Assembly: GCA_029067355.1 (NCBI GenBank)
Contig: JAIEEQ010000076.1
Location: 1 to 47,809, forward strand
DNA from: Anaeroplasmataceae bacterium
GTDB taxonomy: Bacteria; Bacillota_I; Bacilli_A; Acholeplasmatales; Anaeroplasmataceae
DNA length: 47,809 bases
Direction of reading: 5' to 3'
The translations under genes were made by a program, and so were the position numbers. The notes under the pieces are model-generated. The model ran no database searches and was not told the origin of the DNA. It saw only the letters and a program-made list of their open reading frames with translations. Within the stretch, counting starts at the first letter, position 1, and each line of letters begins with the position of its first letter. Positions 8,256 to 20,956 of the stretch are shown piece after piece.

Positions 8256-9929
8256 ATGAAAAGAAAAGGATGGGGCTTTTTTTTGATTGGGCTTGTTTTA
8301 TTTACCATAACAGCGTGTAGTACAAAAGCAGAGTCAAAATTAGATGATGTAATCCAAACCCTAGAAATTAAAGAAACTGGAAATAAGATTACTAATGATT
8401 TTTATGTTCCAAAAATCATGCAGTATGAGGATGATTTTTATCCTATTGTATGGAGCACAAGTTTGAATATAATCACAATAAAAGTGGAAAATCAGTTGGT
8501 TTTCATTGATATTGATTTTTCTACACTAGATATAGGAACTCATGATGCAAGTATTATGGCTACTATAAAAAATGCTAACAACCAGGCTAGTAAGACCTTC
8601 GATTTCTTTATTCTTAAAGAAGAAAATGGATCTAATGGTGGTAACACGGGAGATACTCCTGCAAAAGATATATCCTTTACTAAAAAGGAATTTTCCAATC
8701 GCTTAAGTGAGGATGGGCCTTTGACTGAAAGAGCATTTCCATCCATAGGAAATCCTAAAATGCTAGTTATTCCAGTGAATTTAAAATCTTCAGAGGCAAC
8801 TCCTAGAAATTTACGTGAAATCAAGACGGCTTTTACGGGTACTAGTGAAAGTACAGGCTGGGAGAGTGTTCAATCCTATTATCAAAAGAGCTCCTACGGA
8901 AAGATGAATATGGAAATTACAGTTTTGAATGAATGGTTTACTCCAAGCAAATCGGCTTCATATTATAATTCCTATTCCAATGGAAGTAGTGATGGATCAA
9001 CTTTAATTTTACAGGAAGCGTTAGAATATTATGATAGTAAGATAGACTTTACTGAATATGATTATGATAAGGATGGATACATTGATGGGGTTTGGCTGAT
9101 TTATAATTATGATGTTAATTATGAAAACTCAGACTCTCTTTTCTGGGCATTTACCTATTGGAATTATGAGGAAAATGAGTATGATGGTGTTAAATCCTAT
9201 TATTATGCTTGGGCAGGTATAGACTTTATGCATCCAACAAAAGAGGATGCTGGATACTACGATCCAACGGATATTACAATAGATGCTCATACCTATATTC
9301 ATGAAACTGGGCATATGCTGGGGTTAGATGATTATTATGATTATGATGAAAATGCGGGCGTAAATTCTTATGGCTTTTATGGTTGTGATATGATGGATTT
9401 TAACATTGGGGATCATAGTGCAATTTCAAAGCTGTTATTAGGATGGGTTGCTCCTATTGTAGTAGAAGGGAAGGGGACTGGATCAATTGATTTGGCATCC
9501 TTTACAACCACTGGAGAATTTATTATTATTGCAGACCATACCTTAAACTCAATATATGATACCTACTGGACAATAGAATTTTATACAAACGATGGCTTAA
9601 ATGCACATGATAAGCCCTATGACTCAAATCAAAATGCTTATGGTATTCGCATTATGGAAATTCATGCAGAAAAGAATATAGTTAATGGAATGGTCACAGA
9701 GAATTCAGGAACGTATCAAACAGGATTTAAATATGATAATTCAGATGAAAGTATTATGTTTGCAGATGGTATTTATGAAAAAGCCCCATCCGCATATAAT
9801 GATTATTCAGTAGATGCAGATTGTTTATATCAGGCAAACGAAATAATGAAAAATGCCTCTGTTCCATTTGAATTAGCAGTTAATTCAATGACTAGTGAAA
9901 AGACTAATATTACTATCACTATAAAATAG
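8256..9929 (+). CDS. Lipoprotein M6 family zinc metalloprotease
   Basis: 557-residue exported protease. The N terminus is a lipoprotein signal: charged start, hydrophobic core, lipobox ITAC with C21 as lipidation site. Residues ~25-125 form an immunoglobulin-like domain, then a short Gly/Asn linker. The catalytic M6 domain carries the zinc motif HETGHMLGLDD at residues 349-359 (HExxHxxGxxD, third ligand probably D359) and a DYDKDGYID calcium-loop-like segment around residue 270, both usual for immune-inhibitor-A-type peptidases. It would be anchored on the outer face of the membrane and degrade extracellular proteins. Single gene between two terminators, next to the secreted nuclease cluster. 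Ribosome site AAAGAGG before ATG 8256. A weak promoter may lie around 8186-8214. Confidence 0.88.
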   Translation: MKRKGWGFFLIGLVLFTITACSTKAESKLDDVIQTLEIKETGNKITNDFYVPKIMQYEDDFYPIVWSTSLNIITIKVENQLVFIDIDFSTLDIGTHDASIMATIKNANNQASKTFDFFILKEENGSNGGNTGDTPAKDISFTKKEFSNRLSEDGPLTERAFPSIGNPKMLVIPVNLKSSEATPRNLREIKTAFTGTSESTGWESVQSYYQKSSYGKMNMEITVLNEWFTPSKSASYYNSYSNGSSDGSTLILQEALEYYDSKIDFTEYDYDKDGYIDGVWLIYNYDVNYENSDSLFWAFTYWNYEENEYDGVKSYYYAWAGIDFMHPTKEDAGYYDPTDITIDAHTYIHETGHMLGLDDYYDYDENAGVNSYGFYGCDMMDFNIGDHSAISKLLLGWVAPIVVEGKGTGSIDLASFTTTGEFIIIADHTLNSIYDTYWTIEFYTNDGLNAHDKPYDSNQNAYGIRIMEIHAEKNIVNGMVTENSGTYQTGFKYDNSDESIMFADGIYEKAPSAYNDYSVDADCLYQANEIMKNASVPFELAVNSMTSEKTNITITIK

Positions 9930-9940
9930 GAAAAACAAAG

Positions 9941-9971
9941 CACTTAGATACGAAATCTAGGTGTTTTTTTT
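9941..9971 (+). terminator. Terminator after the M6 protease gene
   Basis: CACTTAGAT / ATCTAGGTG hairpin (one G-T pair) followed by eight T. Confidence 0.8.
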
Positions 9972-10031: not shown

Positions 10032-10061
10032 TTGACAAAAAGGTTTAGGGGGGGGTACAAT
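10032..10061 (+). promoter_or_regulatory. Promoter with G8 tract in the spacer, upstream of the secreted-protein cluster
   Basis: Perfect -35 TTGACA (10032-10037) and -10 TACAAT (10056-10061) separated by 18 bp, of which the last eight are an uninterrupted run of G (10048-10055). Loss of one G would give the optimal 17-bp spacer. Such G tracts are very rare in this AT-rich sequence. Slipped-strand changes of spacer length are the known switch of Neisseria porA, so this promoter may be phase variable (inference). Confidence 0.7.
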
Positions 10062-10071
10062 CATATTGTAC
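10055..10071 (+). repeat. Palindrome over the -10 box (candidate operator)
   Basis: Perfect inverted repeat GTACAAT-CAT-ATTGTAC. Its left arm contains the -10 hexamer and its right arm lies over the expected transcription start, the position expected for a repressor operator. A further TACAAT hexamer is at 10069-10074. Confidence 0.55.
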
Positions 10072-10143
10072 AATAGTGATAAAAATGAATTGCTAAAGTA
10101 TAAGAGAAGTTTTAAAAAAAGAAAAGGGAAGGTATATTTGTAA

Positions 10144-12336
10144 ATGAAAAAAATTGTTTCAATGTTTTTATTACTTTGTGGTTTTTTAACATTGAGTGCT
10201 GTATTGGTAGAAGTCTATGCGGCAGAAATTATCAGTTACCGACTTGTAACTGATGCGTCAGAATTGACTTTGGGGTCAACCGTAATTATAACAGATACGA
10301 ATTCAAAATTTGCTTTGGGAACAACTCAAAATTCTAATAATAGAGTAGCTGTTGCAATTACTACCTCTCCAGATGGAAGCATTCCTCAAACAGCTGATGT
10401 ACAAGATATCATAATAGGAGAAGGAACTCAAGCAGATACTGTGGCCTTTAATGTTGGTAATGGCTATTTGTATGCTGCAAGTAGTAGTGGGAATCAGTTA
10501 AAAACAGCAACTGCAAAAACTGAAAATTCTGATTGGAAAATCACAATTGATCCAACAACATATGATGCTGAAATAAAAGCACAGGGTGCAAACACAAGAA
10601 ATTTATTAAGAAAAAATTCCAGCAGTGCTTTATTTGCTTGCTATGGTTCAGGACAAACTGCTGTTAAAGTTTATAAAAAGCATGTTGAAAGTGCAGGAGT
10701 AGATGAAGTAGCTACGGTTAAATTTTATATGAATAATGGTACAGATGCCATAGTAAAGGAAGATACTGTATCTAAGGGAACTCCTATTTTGTTTCCGGAA
10801 AATCCATCTAGACTAGGATATGTATTCTTGGGATGGTTTGATGCCGCTGAAAATGGAAACAAGGTTGAAACTTTAGCACCAACTGAAAATACAAATTTAT
10901 ATGCTCATTGGGAAGTAGATGTATATCACCATTTAAGAATTGATAGTACAGAGCTTAATAAACTTCCTAATGCCAGTGGAAGTGGGTATGCACCATACAA
11001 TGGATCCCATACTACATCAACTGGAGAAGAATTTTCTTCTAATCAGGTTATGGTCTCAACAGATGTTTTGCAATTCCAAAAAGATACAGGCTACATTTTC
11101 AATTCGTCTGCAATTTCTGGTACGATTGCCTATATTGCATTAGATATTGAGGAAGGAAGCTTTGTAGTTTCTACATCCGCTTCTATATTAAGCTCTAATG
11201 GAGAAAATGCACAAACAATAACTTCTGCAAATAATAAACTAGTTGTTACAAGTACAGATCACGCTTATTTCTATATTAAGAATAATACCTCTGGATCAGG
11301 TAAAGTGAAAGCTATTGATATTGCATATAATTATGTAGAACGTACTACTTATTCCATTACCTTTAATGCTGGAGATGGTGTTTCCTTTAAAGAAGGCAAG
11401 GGAACTACAATTGTAGCAAACAAAGGAGAGTCCACCACTATTGTTTTGCCAACGGCAGATGATTTGGTTCAAACACTTTATAAATATTCTATCTTGTCTT
11501 TATGGAATGGTCGTATCAATCGTCATCCAGGAGAGAGTGTTACTTTAGATGATGATATTACCTTTACTGCTATGTATGTAGCTCCTGAAAACTTAACTGT
11601 TGCTCAGGCGATAGAGGTGGCTGATATAACTGGAACAGCTGCTACAACCATTTCATTTTCAACTAGAGCAACAATTTCAGCAATTAATGGTAGAAATGTT
11701 TTAATATCTGATGAGAGTACTTCAGAAACTTTCGTAGTATATAATCCAAGTAATCTTTCTACATTAGCTGTTGGTGATATAATCACTGCAACAGGTAAGA
11801 TTAAGACTTATAATGGTACAAAAGAATATGATGCACCTAAAGTAGTTGTAAATAAGCCTGCTTCTGCAAGTGTTTTTGAAACTCTGCAAACAAAAGCAAG
11901 TTTAAAATTAATGAACGACACTGTTTCAATCCGTTTTGGTAATTTGATTTCAGCAGAAGCATATAATTCCGCAGCAACTTATGGCGTAGTTGTTTCCTTA
12001 GATGGAGCTGCTTTGACAAACCTGACTGCTGAGGCAATAGAGGCATTAAAGGAAGCAGGACAGGGAGCTGTTTGTGTTCCTGTTAGAGTAAATGCTCAGG
12101 GTGTGGCTGATGCAAATGGAGAGTATTATCAATTTGCATTAGTTTTAAATGATGTGCCTAATACAGATTATAATGTAGAAATATTTGCTACGATGTATAT
12201 GATTGTTGATGGAAATGTATATACTGCACAGATGAAATCAGCGTCTGTTAAAAGTGTTGCTTCTGCATATTTAGAGGGAGATACTTCTAAATTCTCAGCA
12301 AGTACAATAGAAATTTTAAATAGTTTAGTTGCATAA
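10144..12336 (+). CDS. Secreted multidomain protein (two InlB-type repeats, OB-fold, shared C-terminal domain)
   Basis: 730-residue exported protein with a Sec signal peptide (residues 1 to about 28, ending VYAAE). Visible parts: an N-terminal beta-rich domain of unknown family (~30-180); a Listeria-Bacteroides/InlB B-type repeat (~190-258, with GYVFLGWFD and LYAHWE); a Ser/Thr-rich beta domain (~260-400); a second, divergent InlB-type repeat (~403-480); an OB-fold-like domain (~485-575, GRNVLISDES and VGDIITATGKI) of the kind attached to extracellular nucleases; and a C-terminal domain (~585-720, PVRVNAQGVADANGEYYQFA) that recurs in the two nucleases downstream. No catalytic motif is recognised, and no LPXTG or membrane anchor. 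It is first in the cluster behind the G8 promoter. Probably an adhesin or a nuclease partner; function unknown. Confidence 0.75.
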   Translation: MKKIVSMFLLLCGFLTLSAVLVEVYAAEIISYRLVTDASELTLGSTVIITDTNSKFALGTTQNSNNRVAVAITTSPDGSIPQTADVQDIIIGEGTQADTVAFNVGNGYLYAASSSGNQLKTATAKTENSDWKITIDPTTYDAEIKAQGANTRNLLRKNSSSALFACYGSGQTAVKVYKKHVESAGVDEVATVKFYMNNGTDAIVKEDTVSKGTPILFPENPSRLGYVFLGWFDAAENGNKVETLAPTENTNLYAHWEVDVYHHLRIDSTELNKLPNASGSGYAPYNGSHTTSTGEEFSSNQVMVSTDVLQFQKDTGYIFNSSAISGTIAYIALDIEEGSFVVSTSASILSSNGENAQTITSANNKLVVTSTDHAYFYIKNNTSGSGKVKAIDIAYNYVERTTYSITFNAGDGVSFKEGKGTTIVANKGESTTIVLPTADDLVQTLYKYSILSLWNGRINRHPGESVTLDDDITFTAMYVAPENLTVAQAIEVADITGTAATTISFSTRATISAINGRNVLISDESTSETFVVYNPSNLSTLAVGDIITATGKIKTYNGTKEYDAPKVVVNKPASASVFETLQTKASLKLMNDTVSIRFGNLISAEAYNSAATYGVVVSLDGAALTNLTAEAIEALKEAGQGAVCVPVRVNAQGVADANGEYYQFALVLNDVPNTDYNVEIFATMYMIVDGNVYTAQMKSASVKSVASAYLEGDTSKFSASTIEILNSLVA

Positions 12337-12492: not shown

Positions 12493-12517
12493 GGCACTAC
12501 GCAAGTAGTGCCTACTT
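12493..12517 (+). terminator. Hairpin (terminator or attenuator) after the small peptide gene
   Basis: GGCACTAC-GCAA-GTAGTGCC, a perfect 8-bp stem with a GNRA-type tetraloop, followed by TACTTTT. No convincing promoter follows before the next gene, so it may be a partial terminator or RNA-stabilising hairpin inside the operon. Confidence 0.65.
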
Positions 12518-12549
12518 TTGCTTATTATAAAATATATGAGGTGATGCTT

Positions 12550-14580
12550 TTGAAAAGGTTTGTTAAGCTGATTCTAGTTTTTACAACATTATTAACACTA
12601 TTTTCTGTTAATATTATTACAGGTCGTGCTATTTATGATAGTTCTAAAGCGACCAATGATGCTACCTTACTTGAATCATATTACAGAAATGTTAATACGA
12701 ATCTAAGTGGAGAAGATTTTAGAAGAAATCTAAGTGAGGTTATTTCTGCTGGCTATCAACGTCATCCTTACAGTGGTGGTTCTTCAGATGTGGCTACCAT
12801 TTTAAGAGAAAGTGATGCAGACCCTAGTGGAAATGGAAATGTTATTTGTATTTATACAGGATTGTCTATGCCATCTTCTCAGACTGGTGGTGCCTATGAA
12901 TGGGATAAAGAGCATGTATGGGCGAAATCTCATGGTTTTCCAAACGATTCAGGTGTGATGAAGGAAGCCTTTAGTGATGCTCATAACTTACGACCCGCTT
13001 TGGCCTCTGTTAATAGAAGTCGATCAAATAAGGATCATGGAATTGTAACAAATCCTACTCGTACAGATTACGGAAATAAACAGAATGAAACTACATTTGA
13101 GCCTAGAGATGAGTCAAAAGGTGATGTAGCACGTATTATGTTTTATATGGCTACACGATATGGGTTTGATGAGGTTAGTTTAGCTTTAGTAGATGACACA
13201 ACTACCTCAGCTTCTAGTCTAAATGGACGTTTTGGAAATTTGCAAACTTTAATTCAGTGGCATTATGACGATCCTGTTAGCCAAAGTGAGATATATCGAA
13301 ATAATGTTGTATATGGTTATCAAAACAATCGAAATCCGTTCATTGATCATCCAGAGTATGTAGCTTTAGCTTATCCAAATGCACAGGGGGGCACAACAGT
13401 AGATGAAACGAAAGTAGATGCAGTTAAGCAAGCGATTTCTCGTTTGCCAGATGTCATAACTCTAGAGGATGCAGATGCTATTAATTCTGCAAAAGCAATG
13501 TATGATGCCCTAAATTCTTTAGAAAAAGCTAAAGTAGATAATTATGATACATTAAAAAATGCTTTAAATACCTTAAAGGCCTTACAAGAGCCAATTACTG
13601 AAACTCCAGATTATACTTATAGTGTGACCAGTAAAATATTTTCTAACGTGAATCAAACGACGGATTTAAATGGCTTAAGCTGGACTTTAGAGGGTACACC
13701 AACAAATCAAGAGGGATATATTGGGTTTTATCAAAATGCAAAGGGGATTCAGTTAGGTTCAGCCTCAAAGCCCTTTAGTAGAATTAAACTGACTTCATCA
13801 AAGCTTACTAAAATAACAAAAGTTGTGCTTTATGCATCAGGAGCCACAGGAATTAATGCCTCCTTAAGCTGTAATGTAGGGAATCAAACAGCAAGTGAAG
13901 CCTATTCACTCACCAAAGATAACGCAGCATATGAATTTATGTTTGAACAATCGAATGGTGCTGTATCCTTTTCAATAATAAATAATAGCGCTAAAGCAGT
14001 TTATGTTCAGCGAATGGATATTTATTACACAGAAGTAGATTTAGTTCCAGAAACCTTAATTTTGACAGAAACTCATTCTAGCTTAAAAGTAAACTATGAT
14101 TCTGCAACCTTAGAAGCTACTGAGGTTAATTTGCGATTTGGTGTGAAGATGCTTGAGGATGCTTATCATCCTGATGCAAAATATGGAATAGTTATTGTAG
14201 ATAGTAGCTTATCTAATCGTCTTGTTAGTGGTGAACAGAATTTTACAACAATAAATGATTTTGTTTCCAAAGAAAATTATCTTGAGATTTCTCCAGTTCG
14301 AGTAAATGAATCTGGAGAAGAGGATGCAAACGGAGCATATTACCAATTTGCATGGGTAATTACAAATATGGAGGGTCATTATGAGGACACTCTTTCAGCA
14401 GTAATATATATGGAATATAACAATAAGGTTTATTTTGGAATATCTGAAACAAATTCTTTAGTTAATGTAGCAACAAATTATTTAGAAGAAGATTTAATTC
14501 AAAATGAAGATTTGAAAATTGTACTACAAAAAATAATAAAAGGAAGCGAACAAGATTCTTCTTGGCTTCCATGGGTTTAA
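12550..14580 (+). CDS. Secreted endonuclease I family protein, copy 1
   Basis: 676-residue exported nuclease. The TTG at 12550 is chosen because GAGGTGAT lies just upstream and the resulting MKRFVKLIL start matches the paralogue downstream. Signal peptide to about residue 27. The nuclease domain (~30-285) has the Endonuclease_1 (His-Me finger) motifs YEWDKEHVWAKSHGF with the likely catalytic His near residue 121, SDAHNLRPALASVNRSRSN and FEPRDESKGDVARIMFYMATRYG. Then a three-helix module (~290-350, LEDADAINSAKAMYDALNS), a beta-sandwich domain (~355-500), and the C-terminal domain shared with its neighbours (PVRVNESGEEDANGAYYQFA). The family cleaves DNA and RNA non-specifically; here outside the cell. 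It probably serves nucleic acid scavenging or breakdown of extracellular DNA. Confidence 0.85.
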   Translation: MKRFVKLILVFTTLLTLFSVNIITGRAIYDSSKATNDATLLESYYRNVNTNLSGEDFRRNLSEVISAGYQRHPYSGGSSDVATILRESDADPSGNGNVICIYTGLSMPSSQTGGAYEWDKEHVWAKSHGFPNDSGVMKEAFSDAHNLRPALASVNRSRSNKDHGIVTNPTRTDYGNKQNETTFEPRDESKGDVARIMFYMATRYGFDEVSLALVDDTTTSASSLNGRFGNLQTLIQWHYDDPVSQSEIYRNNVVYGYQNNRNPFIDHPEYVALAYPNAQGGTTVDETKVDAVKQAISRLPDVITLEDADAINSAKAMYDALNSLEKAKVDNYDTLKNALNTLKALQEPITETPDYTYSVTSKIFSNVNQTTDLNGLSWTLEGTPTNQEGYIGFYQNAKGIQLGSASKPFSRIKLTSSKLTKITKVVLYASGATGINASLSCNVGNQTASEAYSLTKDNAAYEFMFEQSNGAVSFSIINNSAKAVYVQRMDIYYTEVDLVPETLILTETHSSLKVNYDSATLEATEVNLRFGVKMLEDAYHPDAKYGIVIVDSSLSNRLVSGEQNFTTINDFVSKENYLEISPVRVNESGEEDANGAYYQFAWVITNMEGHYEDTLSAVIYMEYNNKVYFGISETNSLVNVATNYLEEDLIQNEDLKIVLQKIIKGSEQDSSWLPWV

Positions 14581-14599
14581 AAAGGGGAGGGAATAGAGT

Positions 14600-16657
14600 A
14601 TGAAACGATTCAGTAAAGTAGTTATTACATTTGTAATGTTTTTAACATTGATTGGTGTAGCCGTTATACAAGGTAATGCCAGACCATCCACATATTTTGA
14701 TGCAACATATTATACACAGAATATTCCAAGTGGATATTATGATGATGTTGATACATCATTAACAGAGGATGATTTTAGAAGAAATCTGAGTACGATTATA
14801 TCAAGAGGATATGTAAAGCATTCTTATTCAACGAATAATGAGGTATTAACGTACACAGATCCAGATCCTAGTGGAAATGGCAAAATCATTTGCTTATATA
14901 CGGGTCAGTCTTTAAGTAGTGGATCATGGAATAAAGAGCACGTTTGGGCAAAATCACATGGTTTTGGCACAGAATCATGGGAGCCTTATTCTGATGCTCA
15001 TCATTTAAGACCCACGTTAAATTCAATTAATTCCAGCAGAAGTAATTCAGATTTTGGAGAGGTTTCTAATCCAACAGGGAAAGATAGCTATGGGAATCGT
15101 TGGACAAGCAATACCTTTGAGCCTCGCGATGAGGTGAAGGGAGATGTTGCTCGTATGATGTTTTATATGGCAACACGGTATGGCTATGTAGCCCCTTATA
15201 ATCTAAAGCTTGTAAATGATTCAAATACTTCAATTTCCAAAGAAGGGAATGGACGCTTTGGAAATTTACAAACATTATTAAAATGGCATTATCAGGATCC
15301 AGTGAGCAAGGAAGAAATTTATCGGAACAATATTATTTATCAATTTTATCAAAAGAATCGTAATCCTTACATTGATCATCCTGAATATGTTGATTTTGCA
15401 TATCCAAATAGTTATTCTTCCTCAATGGAAGTAGACGAGGCAAAGGTAAACAATGTTATCAGTTTGATTGGAAGCCTACCTACGATAGTCACATTAGAGC
15501 ATAAGGATCAAATTAATGCTGCCCAAACAGCATATAATGCTTTAAATAGTCTTGAAAAACAAAGAATTGTTAATTATGCAGAGCTTGAAAGATGTTTATC
15601 TGCAATTCGTGACTTAGAAGGAGGAAGTACAACGCCACCTGATGTGCCAACAACTCAAGGCGATATTGTAATTGATTTTGAAACAGCTTTAGGAGTACCA
15701 AATTCATACAAAGCGGATGTTACCTTTACTGCAAGCGAAAAAGAGTTTTTTGCCTCTTATGCGTATTGTGGTGGTGCAAAGGATTTTCGATTAGGATATA
15801 ATAAAACAGATCATGCATTAGATTCTAAATTAGGGATTACAGGGAATGGAGCATATTTAGAACCGCAATTTGATGTTGAGAATCTAAAATCTATGAATCT
15901 GTCTGTAACAGGAAAATATGGTACAACAAATTCTTGGTATGTGTTATTTAAGGCAAGTGGGTCAAATGCCTATACACAGGTAGCAACAGGAAATCCTGGT
16001 AGTGCTAGTTCTTATGATATAACTGCATCCCTTTCAACTCCTGCAAATGGACGATTTGTCATTGTAATTGTTGGTTCTCTTCCTAGAATTGTTATTTCAA
16101 AGCTATCCTTATATACTGGAACAGGAGGCAGTTCATCTAATCCAGGTGATTCTTTCCTTACCTCCTTCATTGCAGAACAAACATCAGCTAGTATCAAATT
16201 AGATTATAATGAAACAACAGGCGATGTTTTAGAAGCCAATTTACGATTTGGTGGAAGAATTAAGTCATCCTCATACAACAGCAATGCTACATATGGTGTG
16301 ATTGTTTTTGATGCGGAATATGCAAGCTTGTTTGAACCAGGAGAACAACTAAATGAGTCAACTGCTTCTCATTTCGTGGGAGCTGAAAACTTTATTGAAA
16401 TGACTCCTGTAAGAGTGAATCAATATGGAAAAGTGGATGCAAATGGAGCATATTATCAATTTGCATGGTCTATTACGAATATGGAAGGTCATTATTCAGA
16501 TCAGCTTGTAGGTGTGATTTATGTTGAATATAATGGAAAATTATATTTAGGAAATTCAATAACTGCTTCATTGGCTTCACTTGCGAAAGGATATATAGAC
16601 CAAAGCATTTTTACAGATCCAATAACAAATGTAGCCTTAAAAAGCTTATATCAATAA
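14600..16657 (+). CDS. Secreted endonuclease I family protein, copy 2
   Basis: 685-residue paralogue of the preceding gene, 19 bases downstream with ribosome site GGGGAGG. Signal peptide MKRFSKVVITFVMF... ending about residue 27 (GNA). The nuclease domain has WNKEHVWAKSHGF, SDAHHLRPTLNSINSSRSN and FEPRDEVKGDVARMMFYMATRYG, so the active-site set is kept. A similar helical module follows (~270-335), then a Thr/Pro linker and a beta-rich domain (~345-510) that differs clearly from that of copy 1, and the same C-terminal domain (PVRVNQYGKVDANGAYYQFA). The two nucleases thus share both ends but have diverged in the middle, suggesting different binding targets. No surface-anchor motif is seen. Confidence 0.85.
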   Translation: MKRFSKVVITFVMFLTLIGVAVIQGNARPSTYFDATYYTQNIPSGYYDDVDTSLTEDDFRRNLSTIISRGYVKHSYSTNNEVLTYTDPDPSGNGKIICLYTGQSLSSGSWNKEHVWAKSHGFGTESWEPYSDAHHLRPTLNSINSSRSNSDFGEVSNPTGKDSYGNRWTSNTFEPRDEVKGDVARMMFYMATRYGYVAPYNLKLVNDSNTSISKEGNGRFGNLQTLLKWHYQDPVSKEEIYRNNIIYQFYQKNRNPYIDHPEYVDFAYPNSYSSSMEVDEAKVNNVISLIGSLPTIVTLEHKDQINAAQTAYNALNSLEKQRIVNYAELERCLSAIRDLEGGSTTPPDVPTTQGDIVIDFETALGVPNSYKADVTFTASEKEFFASYAYCGGAKDFRLGYNKTDHALDSKLGITGNGAYLEPQFDVENLKSMNLSVTGKYGTTNSWYVLFKASGSNAYTQVATGNPGSASSYDITASLSTPANGRFVIVIVGSLPRIVISKLSLYTGTGGSSSNPGDSFLTSFIAEQTSASIKLDYNETTGDVLEANLRFGGRIKSSSYNSNATYGVIVFDAEYASLFEPGEQLNESTASHFVGAENFIEMTPVRVNQYGKVDANGAYYQFAWSITNMEGHYSDQLVGVIYVEYNGKLYLGNSITASLASLAKGYIDQSIFTDPITNVALKSLYQ

Positions 16658-18922: not shown

Positions 18923-20815
18923 TTATCCCAGATAAAGAAGGATAGAATCACCTTCTTTTATTTTTTCTCCTGCATCAGGAGATTGATATATAACCTGATC
19001 TCCTTCTCCATAAAAGATATATTTGTAAAAAGAGGAGGATTTAATTTCTTTTTTTGTTTTTCCAATGTAATTTTCTACCTTATAGGTTGGCGTATCTAAA
19101 AACCATCTTAAATTTTTTTCGATTTGATTTTCGTAATCACGTTCTATTCCTAAATAATTTAAGGATTGTTCTATAATTTCTCCTACAAGAGGGGCTGCAA
19201 CTGTACCACCATATTGTACACAATTTTTTGGATGATCTATGGCTAAATATACTGCAATTCTAGGATTGTTCATAGGAGCTAACCCTAAAAAGGACAGAAT
19301 ATATTCTCCACTTATATATCCACCAATAGAGGAGATTTTTTGTGCTGTACCTGTTTTGCCTCCTACTCTGTATCCTTCTATGAAAGCATTTCTACCTGTC
19401 CCTAAGGCACATACATTTTCTAAAGCGTATCGCATAAGACTAGAAGTCTTTTCACTGATTACCTGCCGCTTTACTTTTTTTTGATTGGTATATAATATTT
19501 CATCAGTATAATTATGAATTTCTTTTAGAAGGTAAGGCTCTAGAAGATTGCCTCCATTGGTAGCAGTGATAGCAGCCATAACAAGCTGAATGGGGGTGTA
19601 GGCACTGGTTTGTCCAAAGCTTTGAGTGGCAAGCTCCACAGGTCCACAATTCTTTTGACTCATAACGATTCCTTTTGATTCTCCTGCGATATCTATTCCT
19701 GTTTTTTCTGTAAAGCCATAAAGGTTTAGATATTTATAGAAGTTTTCAACTCCAATTCTGCGACCTAACTCCATGAATCCTGGATTACAGGAGTTTTGGA
19801 TAACCTCTAAAAAGGTCTGAGAGCCATGACCTCCAGCCTTCCAGCATCGGATTTTTCTATCAGCCACAGTTGTGCTTCCTCCACAATAGAAGAAGTCATT
19901 CATATCAAATAAACCAAGCTCTAGTGCAACGCTATACGTAAATACCTTAAAGGTAGAGCCTAATTCAAAGGAATAAAAAATAGGAAGAATTCGATTATAA
20001 ATGCTAGGATCATAATCCTGATAATGACTTGGTTCAAAGAAGGGATAGGAGGTCATCGCTAAAACCTCACCTGTCTGTGTATCAACAATAAGTCCCATTA
20101 CCTGATCAGGATCATATTGCTCAATTGCATTATGAATTACACCATCAAGAATCAACTGAAGATTCATATCAATTGTCAAATACAGATTCATTCCAGGAGT
20201 TGATGCCTTATAAATGGAGGTTGTATCATGCATAAGATTTCCTTTGGCATCAGTATAAATAGATAATGCTCCTGTTTGACTAGTCAAATAGTCGTTATAT
20301 TGATATTCTATTCCAGATAACCCTTGCATATCAATGCCACAGAAGCCTAGCACCTGTCCTAGTGTTGAACCATATGGATAGTATCTTTGAGAGTCAGCAG
20401 TTAAATATATTCCTGGTAATCCCAAGGAGTTAATTTTCTTTGCTTGCTCATCTGTAATTCGTCTTCCCTCAGGCTTAATAATTTCTAAGCTATTATTCTT
20501 ATTTAAATGAGAAAGAATATCGCTAGTCTTGCAATTCAAGATTTCGGCAAGTGTTTTAGCAGTACTCTCTTTGTCCTTTACTTGTCTATTGATGGAGGCA
20601 ACGGTATAGGCTAATTTGTTTCCTACGATAACTGTGCCATTGCGATCATAAATTAGTCCTCGACTGCTTTGAACAGGAATATCTCTTTTCCATAGTTCAT
20701 TGGCTAAAATATTAATTTTATTGGAATCAATAAAGGTAATAAAGCCTAATTTGATAACTAAAGCTGAGAACAGAAGAATAAAAAAAATCATAATCATAAA
20801 AATTCTTTTTTTCAA
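18923..20815 (-). CDS. Class B penicillin-binding protein with C-terminal PASTA domain (PBP2B/SpoVD-like)
   Basis: Peptidoglycan transpeptidase of about 630 residues. An N-terminal membrane anchor (~5-27) is followed by a dimerisation domain (SSRGLIYDRNG around residue 50) and the transpeptidase domain with STFK (active Ser ~287), SCN (~342) and KTGTAQK (~487). The C terminus is one PASTA repeat (VENYIGKTKKEIK to the end), as in SpoVD and division PBPs. TTG 20815 is preferred because AGGTGA lies five bases upstream; a GTG at 20824 falls inside that ribosome site. Division PBP (FtsI/PBP2B) and sporulation PBP (SpoVD) cannot be separated without a tree. It is not next to ftsW here, which lies at 32.5 kb. 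Confidence 0.9.
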   Translation of the reverse strand: MKKRIFMIMIFFILLFSALVIKLGFITFIDSNKINILANELWKRDIPVQSSRGLIYDRNGTVIVGNKLAYTVASINRQVKDKESTAKTLAEILNCKTSDILSHLNKNNSLEIIKPEGRRITDEQAKKINSLGLPGIYLTADSQRYYPYGSTLGQVLGFCGIDMQGLSGIEYQYNDYLTSQTGALSIYTDAKGNLMHDTTSIYKASTPGMNLYLTIDMNLQLILDGVIHNAIEQYDPDQVMGLIVDTQTGEVLAMTSYPFFEPSHYQDYDPSIYNRILPIFYSFELGSTFKVFTYSVALELGLFDMNDFFYCGGSTTVADRKIRCWKAGGHGSQTFLEVIQNSCNPGFMELGRRIGVENFYKYLNLYGFTEKTGIDIAGESKGIVMSQKNCGPVELATQSFGQTSAYTPIQLVMAAITATNGGNLLEPYLLKEIHNYTDEILYTNQKKVKRQVISEKTSSLMRYALENVCALGTGRNAFIEGYRVGGKTGTAQKISSIGGYISGEYILSFLGLAPMNNPRIAVYLAIDHPKNCVQYGGTVAAPLVGEIIEQSLNYLGIERDYENQIEKNLRWFLDTPTYKVENYIGKTKKEIKSSSFYKYIFYGEGDQVIYQSPDAGEKIKEGDSILLYLG

Positions 20816-20956
20816 GAAAATCACCTAATATAAAATATGGTATTGCTTAAATTTTCATAACAGGATAAAGAAAAAAGAGCCTTCAAAATGAAAAAATATT
20901 TTATATTTATGAACTATAATTTCATTTAAAAAGGATAGAAATGAAAAGAAATCTAT

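Follow-up and report, generated by a model that had tools for sequence, protein, structure and literature searches.

The window analysed here (the whole stretch of DNA, 47,809 nt, probably from an Anaeroplasma-type genus) contains a gene for a 730-aa secreted protein, preceded by a promoter-like sequence in which a homopolymeric G tract occupies part of the space between the -35 and -10 elements. The gene, its neighbours and the elements of its upstream region are the following.

8256-9929: upstream gene, M6-type metalloprotease, closed by the hairpin and T8
9941..9971, plus strand: terminator-like hairpin followed by T8, at the end of the upstream gene (RNA fold)
10032..10037, plus strand: -35 element TTGACA, 6/6 (sequence and promoter consensus scan)
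10038-10055, plus strand: whole spacer, 18 bp, AAAAGGTTTA plus G8
10038..10047, plus strand: A-rich part of the spacer, AAAAGGTTTA, 10 nt (sequence)
10048..10055, plus strand: G8 tract, proposed length-variable part of the spacer (sequence; the G001 and G009 orthologues have G9 in their promoters)
10055..10071, no strand: perfect palindrome GTACAATCATATTGTAC over the -10 (sequence)
10056..10061, plus strand: -10 element TACAAT, 5/6, adjoining the G tract (promoter consensus scan)
10126..10132, plus strand: Shine-Dalgarno-like GGGAAGG, 11 nt upstream of the start codon (sequence)
10144..12336, plus strand: target gene, 730-aa secreted protein with a signal peptide and one Listeria-Bacteroides repeat
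12508..14580, plus strand: endonuclease I family protein that shares the C-terminal domain of the target
14600..16657, plus strand: second member of the endonuclease I family, also with this C-terminal domain

A secreted product had been predicted behind this promoter, and the target protein agrees with this, both by its signal peptide (simple rule) and its List_Bact_rpt domain and by the class-wide enrichment described below. List_Bact_rpt is the only significant domain; a weak OB-fold-like stretch was also detected (E = 0.04), and the AlphaFold model (mean pLDDT 51.6) is too poor for a structure search. The C-terminal domain of the protein is common to the next two genes downstream. These encode two tandem secreted endonuclease I proteins (12508-16657), and the shared domain suggests a secreted nucleic-acid-degrading cluster; co-transcription of the target gene with the first of them is possible. 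Another observation concerns the minus strand, where a penicillin-binding transpeptidase with a PASTA domain is encoded at 18923-20824 in a genus grouped with the wall-less Mollicutes; peptidoglycan genes have been reported in 40-60% of Anaeroplasmataceae genomes (PMC10868615).

The original prediction had placed TTGACA and TACAAT on either side of an 18-bp spacer whose final eight bases are all G, and the sequence reads exactly so. The -35 element is followed by AAA, a combination common to most sister G-tract sites. Upstream, the hairpin at the end of the metalloprotease gene has a folding energy of -14.1 kcal/mol (z = -4.65 against shuffles, RNA fold) and is followed by eight T; it is absent from the list produced by the consensus scan of the region. 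Because this hairpin and its T8 isolate the target gene from the upstream neighbour, and because only five bases separate the sole other promoter-like match of the consensus scan (10111-10138) from the start codon, the promoter with the G tract is the best candidate for driving its transcription.

A run of eight G had been considered very unusual for this DNA, which proved to be an overstatement. The window holds one G8 run only, where 0.35 are expected and at least one appears in 23 of 100 dinucleotide shuffles. Four runs of G8 or longer were found in the whole genome (1.79 Mb, 89 contigs); one of them, at a contig end, resembles an adapter or poly-G read artefact. The run in contig C35 has TTGACA upstream again, but AAAAAT after the tract, and that in C3 stands before TATATT, upstream of a gene for a HAD-type hydrolase-like protein (named from its own sequence and not by profile search). 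The non-random part is the promoter context, not G8 itself. In addition, stretches of poly-A followed by G12-G17 at contig ends (L055 5765-5800, the end of G000:C16; L265; L249) resemble adapter or poly-G read artefacts and must be left out of G-tract surveys.

The promoter context turned out to be recurrent. The pattern TTGACAN{4,14}GGGGGGGN{0,4}TANNNT gave 42 matches, corresponding to 40 distinct sites (two were reported twice), in 17 of 55 Anaeroplasmataceae genomes from three genera, while neither the backward control pattern nor the C-tract version gave any match in the same 55 genomes. The base skew of the window (G 0.200, C 0.139) amounts to about 13-fold over seven bases and therefore explains part of the preference for the G strand; about three C-tract sites would be expected from this skew alone. 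None of 105 genomes from other families of the same order contained the pattern. Across bacteria, with one genome per species, at least 116 stretches matched, and many of the matches listed come from gut Clostridia and Bacilli, Treponema, Saccharibacteria and Streptobacillus. The possibility that viruses carry these promoters was considered and rejected, with only two matching viral contigs. No earlier description of a poly-G promoter class in Anaeroplasma was found in the literature searched, which covered few subscription journals.

The genes behind these promoters are predominantly those of exported proteins. With a simple gene caller, a signal-peptide rule and paralogues left in, 27 of 36 first downstream genes in Anaeroplasmataceae code for secreted proteins or lipoproteins, as compared with 49 of 150 neighbours (OR 6.2, p = 7e-6); by the same procedure the proportion among the matches listed from other taxa is 52/64, against 69/362 for neighbours (OR 18, p = 7e-22). 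Pfam domains in 35 Anaeroplasmataceae targets include LRR_5 (in six), the Listeria-Bacteroides repeat (in five), Ig-like, fn3 and MBG domains and the prepilin N-methylation motif; one glycosyltransferase and one IclR regulator are also present. As a separate observation on promoters of the genus, TTGACAGTGCCAAA was found at many of them, and TTGACAGTTGANC...TCAACTATAAT promoters contain an inverted repeat inside the spacer; both look like operators of unnamed regulators.

Spacer lengths distinguish the G-tract promoters from the ordinary ones. In the TTGACA/TATAAT promoters of the genus the spacers cluster sharply at 17 bp, the length seen in 57 of 125 distinct promoters, whereas the G-tract promoters have a mode of 18 bp and a range of 11-21 (Mann-Whitney p = 5e-5). 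Among the matches listed from other taxa the modes are 16 and 19 bp, and 17 bp is found in 6 of the 85 spacers of 15 to 20 bp, as if most assembled alleles were in an off state, the baseline for this comparison being borrowed from Anaeroplasma. Broad spacer distributions away from 17 bp fit alleles parked off the optimum; alternatively, the A-form-like DNA of a G tract may move the optimum itself. With 17 bp as the commonest spacing of ordinary promoters in the genus, it is plausible that the loss of one G from the window tract would bring this promoter to the optimum. A compensation of the non-G part of the spacer by tract length was also considered and rejected, the anticorrelation being not significant (rho -0.19, p = 0.26).

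The tract was also looked for upstream of homologous genes, a check proposed with the original prediction, and is present in both relatives with readable upstream DNA, each of which carries G9 instead of the G8 of the window. The G001 homologue is preceded by TTGACT, 10 nt, G9 and TATAAT, with a spacer of 19 bp. The promoter in G009 reads TTGACATA-G9-TATAGT, with a spacer of 11 bp, and with that -35 should be nearly inactive; the homology of the G009 protein to the target lies in the C-terminal part, and its signal peptide looks alike. For the homologues in G005 and G007, the contig stops before or close to the promoter. The 5' leader of the window gene is 78% identical to that of G001 over 132 bp, and beyond the promoter core and this leader the upstream DNA of the two genomes no longer aligns.

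Further differences in tract length were found between close homologues. Near-identical promoters with flanks of 95-98% identity carry G10, G10 and G12; two contigs of one genome (L132 and L152) have G9 and G10 behind an identical segment from the -35 to the tract; and tandem paralogues at L169, 85% identical over 607 bp, also show G9 and G10. One large secreted protein has its G tract inside the coding sequence of the signal peptide, as an in-frame G8 in G004 (L262, G004:C36, 1543) and an out-of-frame G10 in G001 (L245, G001:C98, minus strand, 1443); this locus has the look of a translational on/off switch within the genus. On the other hand, all five tracts paired between G002 and G004 are equal (10/10, 8/8, 8/8, 13/13 and, in a coding region, 8/8), and three species have an unchanged G10 before the HAD-type gene (L054 5534, which is G000:C3:35533-35542; L243; L256). 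Such equality of orthologous tracts makes fast unbiased drift unlikely. The HAD-gene tract stands between TATACT and TATATT, and may lie at the transcription start and not in a spacer. Nine of 34 tracts lie at most 160 bp from a contig end, against 0.8 expected (KS p = 0.04), as expected if assemblies break at tracts of mixed length, although these breaks may also come from the trouble of short reads with G runs or from repeated promoter cassettes. Loss of mismatch repair as a driver of tract variation was rejected, MutS1 being present in 11 of 11 genomes of the genus.

Taken together, these data make it likely, in our judgement, that the window promoter is a vegetative promoter of the sigma-A type with a poly-G tract placed within the -35/-10 spacing and touching the -10, tuned by slippage as a contingency promoter of the porA or Treponema pallidum tp0126 type, and that it is one of several such promoters in Anaeroplasmataceae, driving mostly lipoproteins, BspA-type LRR proteins, Listeria-Bacteroides repeat proteins and Ig-like surface proteins. 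According to this model, replication slippage would add or remove G residues, presumably at an appreciable rate within a population, and each gain or loss would shift both the distance and the rotational phase between the -35 and -10 elements. By analogy with porA and tp0126, the changed spacing would turn transcription of the secreted-protein gene up or down. The assembled allele, with 18 bp one base above the 17-bp norm of the genus, would then represent an intermediate or reduced state, from which one G lost would raise expression and a further G gained would lower it; slippage at the tract would presumably be reversible. The porA-like switch put forward for this locus is in this way upheld in part: its central idea is strongly supported by comparison, namely by the recurrence of a position-specific class before surface and secreted genes and by the lengths that differ between close homologues. 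The length comparisons are mixed, and the equality of several orthologous tracts speaks against fast random drift.

Other explanations have to be weighed against the slippage-tuned promoter. The G run might instead be a fixed cis-element, length-conserved and strand-specific, which labels a regulon of surface proteins without any switching, in the form of an extended -10 contact at -14, of DNA stiffness, or of a site for a poly-G-reading regulator. This is unlikely. In its favour, the tract directly adjoins the -10 at 36 of 41 Anaeroplasmataceae sites and at 87 of 87 among the matches listed from other taxa, a constant contact that pure spacing variation does not require; the 42 G-strand against 0 C-strand sites and the equal orthologous pairs, with G10 before the HAD gene in three species, point in the same direction. 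A fixed element, however, is difficult to reconcile with tract lengths of 8-11 in Anaeroplasmataceae and 8-14 in other taxa (among the matches listed), with spacers of 11-21 bp, and with near-identical homologues that differ in tract length, and base skew accounts for some of the strand bias. A mutational by-product has also been considered, in which slippage, or a T-to-G hotspot on the leading strand, lengthens the runs, and spacers tolerate them with no selection for switching. In gammaproteobacteria, a GnT motif located on the leading strand is a hotspot with strongly elevated T:A to G:C rates (PMC12344412). Since the tract adjoins the -10, the T that follows the run lies in a GnT context, where a T-to-G change would damage the -10. 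Two contig ends of G001, apparently from one site, read G11-ATAAT and G11-TATAAT, the kind of difference that such a change, or a read error, may leave. By this mechanism runs would be expected wherever spacers occur, yet they are found mainly before secreted genes, and within the order the class occurs in only a few genera, all from one family, so we consider the by-product improbable. An ordinary promoter with a chance G run would agree with the one G8 that about a quarter of shuffles of the window contain, but it is very improbable given the 42 matches against 0 for backward controls and the tract in both readable homologues. Finally, runs that resemble poly-G artefacts of two-colour sequencing chemistry or assembly do occur in these assemblies, in the form of poly-A followed by G12 at contig ends (G000:C16, G005:C175); that the window tract is such an artefact is hardly conceivable, as it lies 10 kb inside its contig between coherent genomic flanks, homologues in other assembled genomes carry it, and named isolate genomes show the same design.

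The remaining alternative is built on the palindrome. At 10055-10071 the inverted repeat GTACAAT-CAT-ATTGTAC is present exactly as originally described, and its perfect 7-bp arms lie over the -10, where a repressor operator could exert the main control of the window promoter. This explanation appears quite improbable: as an operator shared by the class, the palindrome did not hold, being seen at 1 of 41 sister promoters and missing at the other 40. The window contains 81 perfect inverted repeats with 7-bp arms, and 13% of shuffles of the promoter's own intergenic region contain at least one. The genome has barely an excess of related sites (12 matches with two mismatches, against nine for the control), and, in the upstream sequences compared, the palindrome is not kept in the orthologous promoter of G001. 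A regulon operator was consequently rejected as a shared feature on the basis of sister promoters, genome scan and G001 orthologue, and the palindrome is probably incidental or at most gene-specific.

A more ambitious extension of the slippage-tuned promoter, which we regard as doubtful, would be a dedicated poly-G system, in which a strand-specific tract locked to the -10 keeps each surface gene at a mostly off-optimal spacing. Such a system would be present in Anaeroplasmataceae and would have independent counterparts in many gut Clostridia, Bacilli, Saccharibacteria and spirochaetes, perhaps with a trans-acting reader of the G tract. If this were true, these gut bacteria, harmless as they appear, would express a large part of their exported proteome stochastically, from one cell to the next. 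The apparent restriction of multi-locus phase-variable genomes to pathogens has been described as an open question, with database bias as one suggested cause (2025 review; PMC11868660). The promoter signature is searchable and indicates multi-locus contingency promoters both in uncultured, apparently commensal relatives of the Mollicutes from rumen and gut and in many other gut anaerobes, so that the question of pathogen restriction becomes directly testable from existing read archives.

In Neisseria meningitidis, the length of the poly-G tract grades the expression of porA, as shown for 11G as compared with 10G and 9G variants (PMC3639595). The likeness lies in the poly-G tract within the -35/-10 spacer of a surface-protein promoter; porA, however, is a single locus of a pathogen, proven in populations, whereas the present class is multi-locus, belongs to uncultured gut Bacillota and is known from sequence. 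Another example is tp0126 of T. pallidum, which encodes an OmpW homologue and has its poly-G between -35 and -10, with transcription being best at 17-bp spacing (PMC7864442). Both tp0126 and tprE/G/J/L resemble the class in having poly-G in surface-protein promoters, although in tprL and its paralogues the tract is just upstream of the transcription start, unlike that of the window promoter; moreover, T. pallidum belongs to a different phylum and its case is backed by expression data. The vlp genes of the Mollicute Mycoplasma hyorhinis encode surface lipoproteins and are switched by the length of a homopolymer next to the -10 of their promoters. In that case the tract is poly-A and the genes form one clustered family, in contrast to poly-G before scattered, unrelated genes. 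Campylobacter jejuni, for its part, possesses a multi-locus poly-G phasome, with tracts that are mainly intragenic and frame-shifting, whereas those of the present class are mainly promoter spacers, with an intragenic minority. Poly-G spacer switching is known as such; what stands out in the present class is how widely its signature occurs in uncultured commensals, an unexpected setting.
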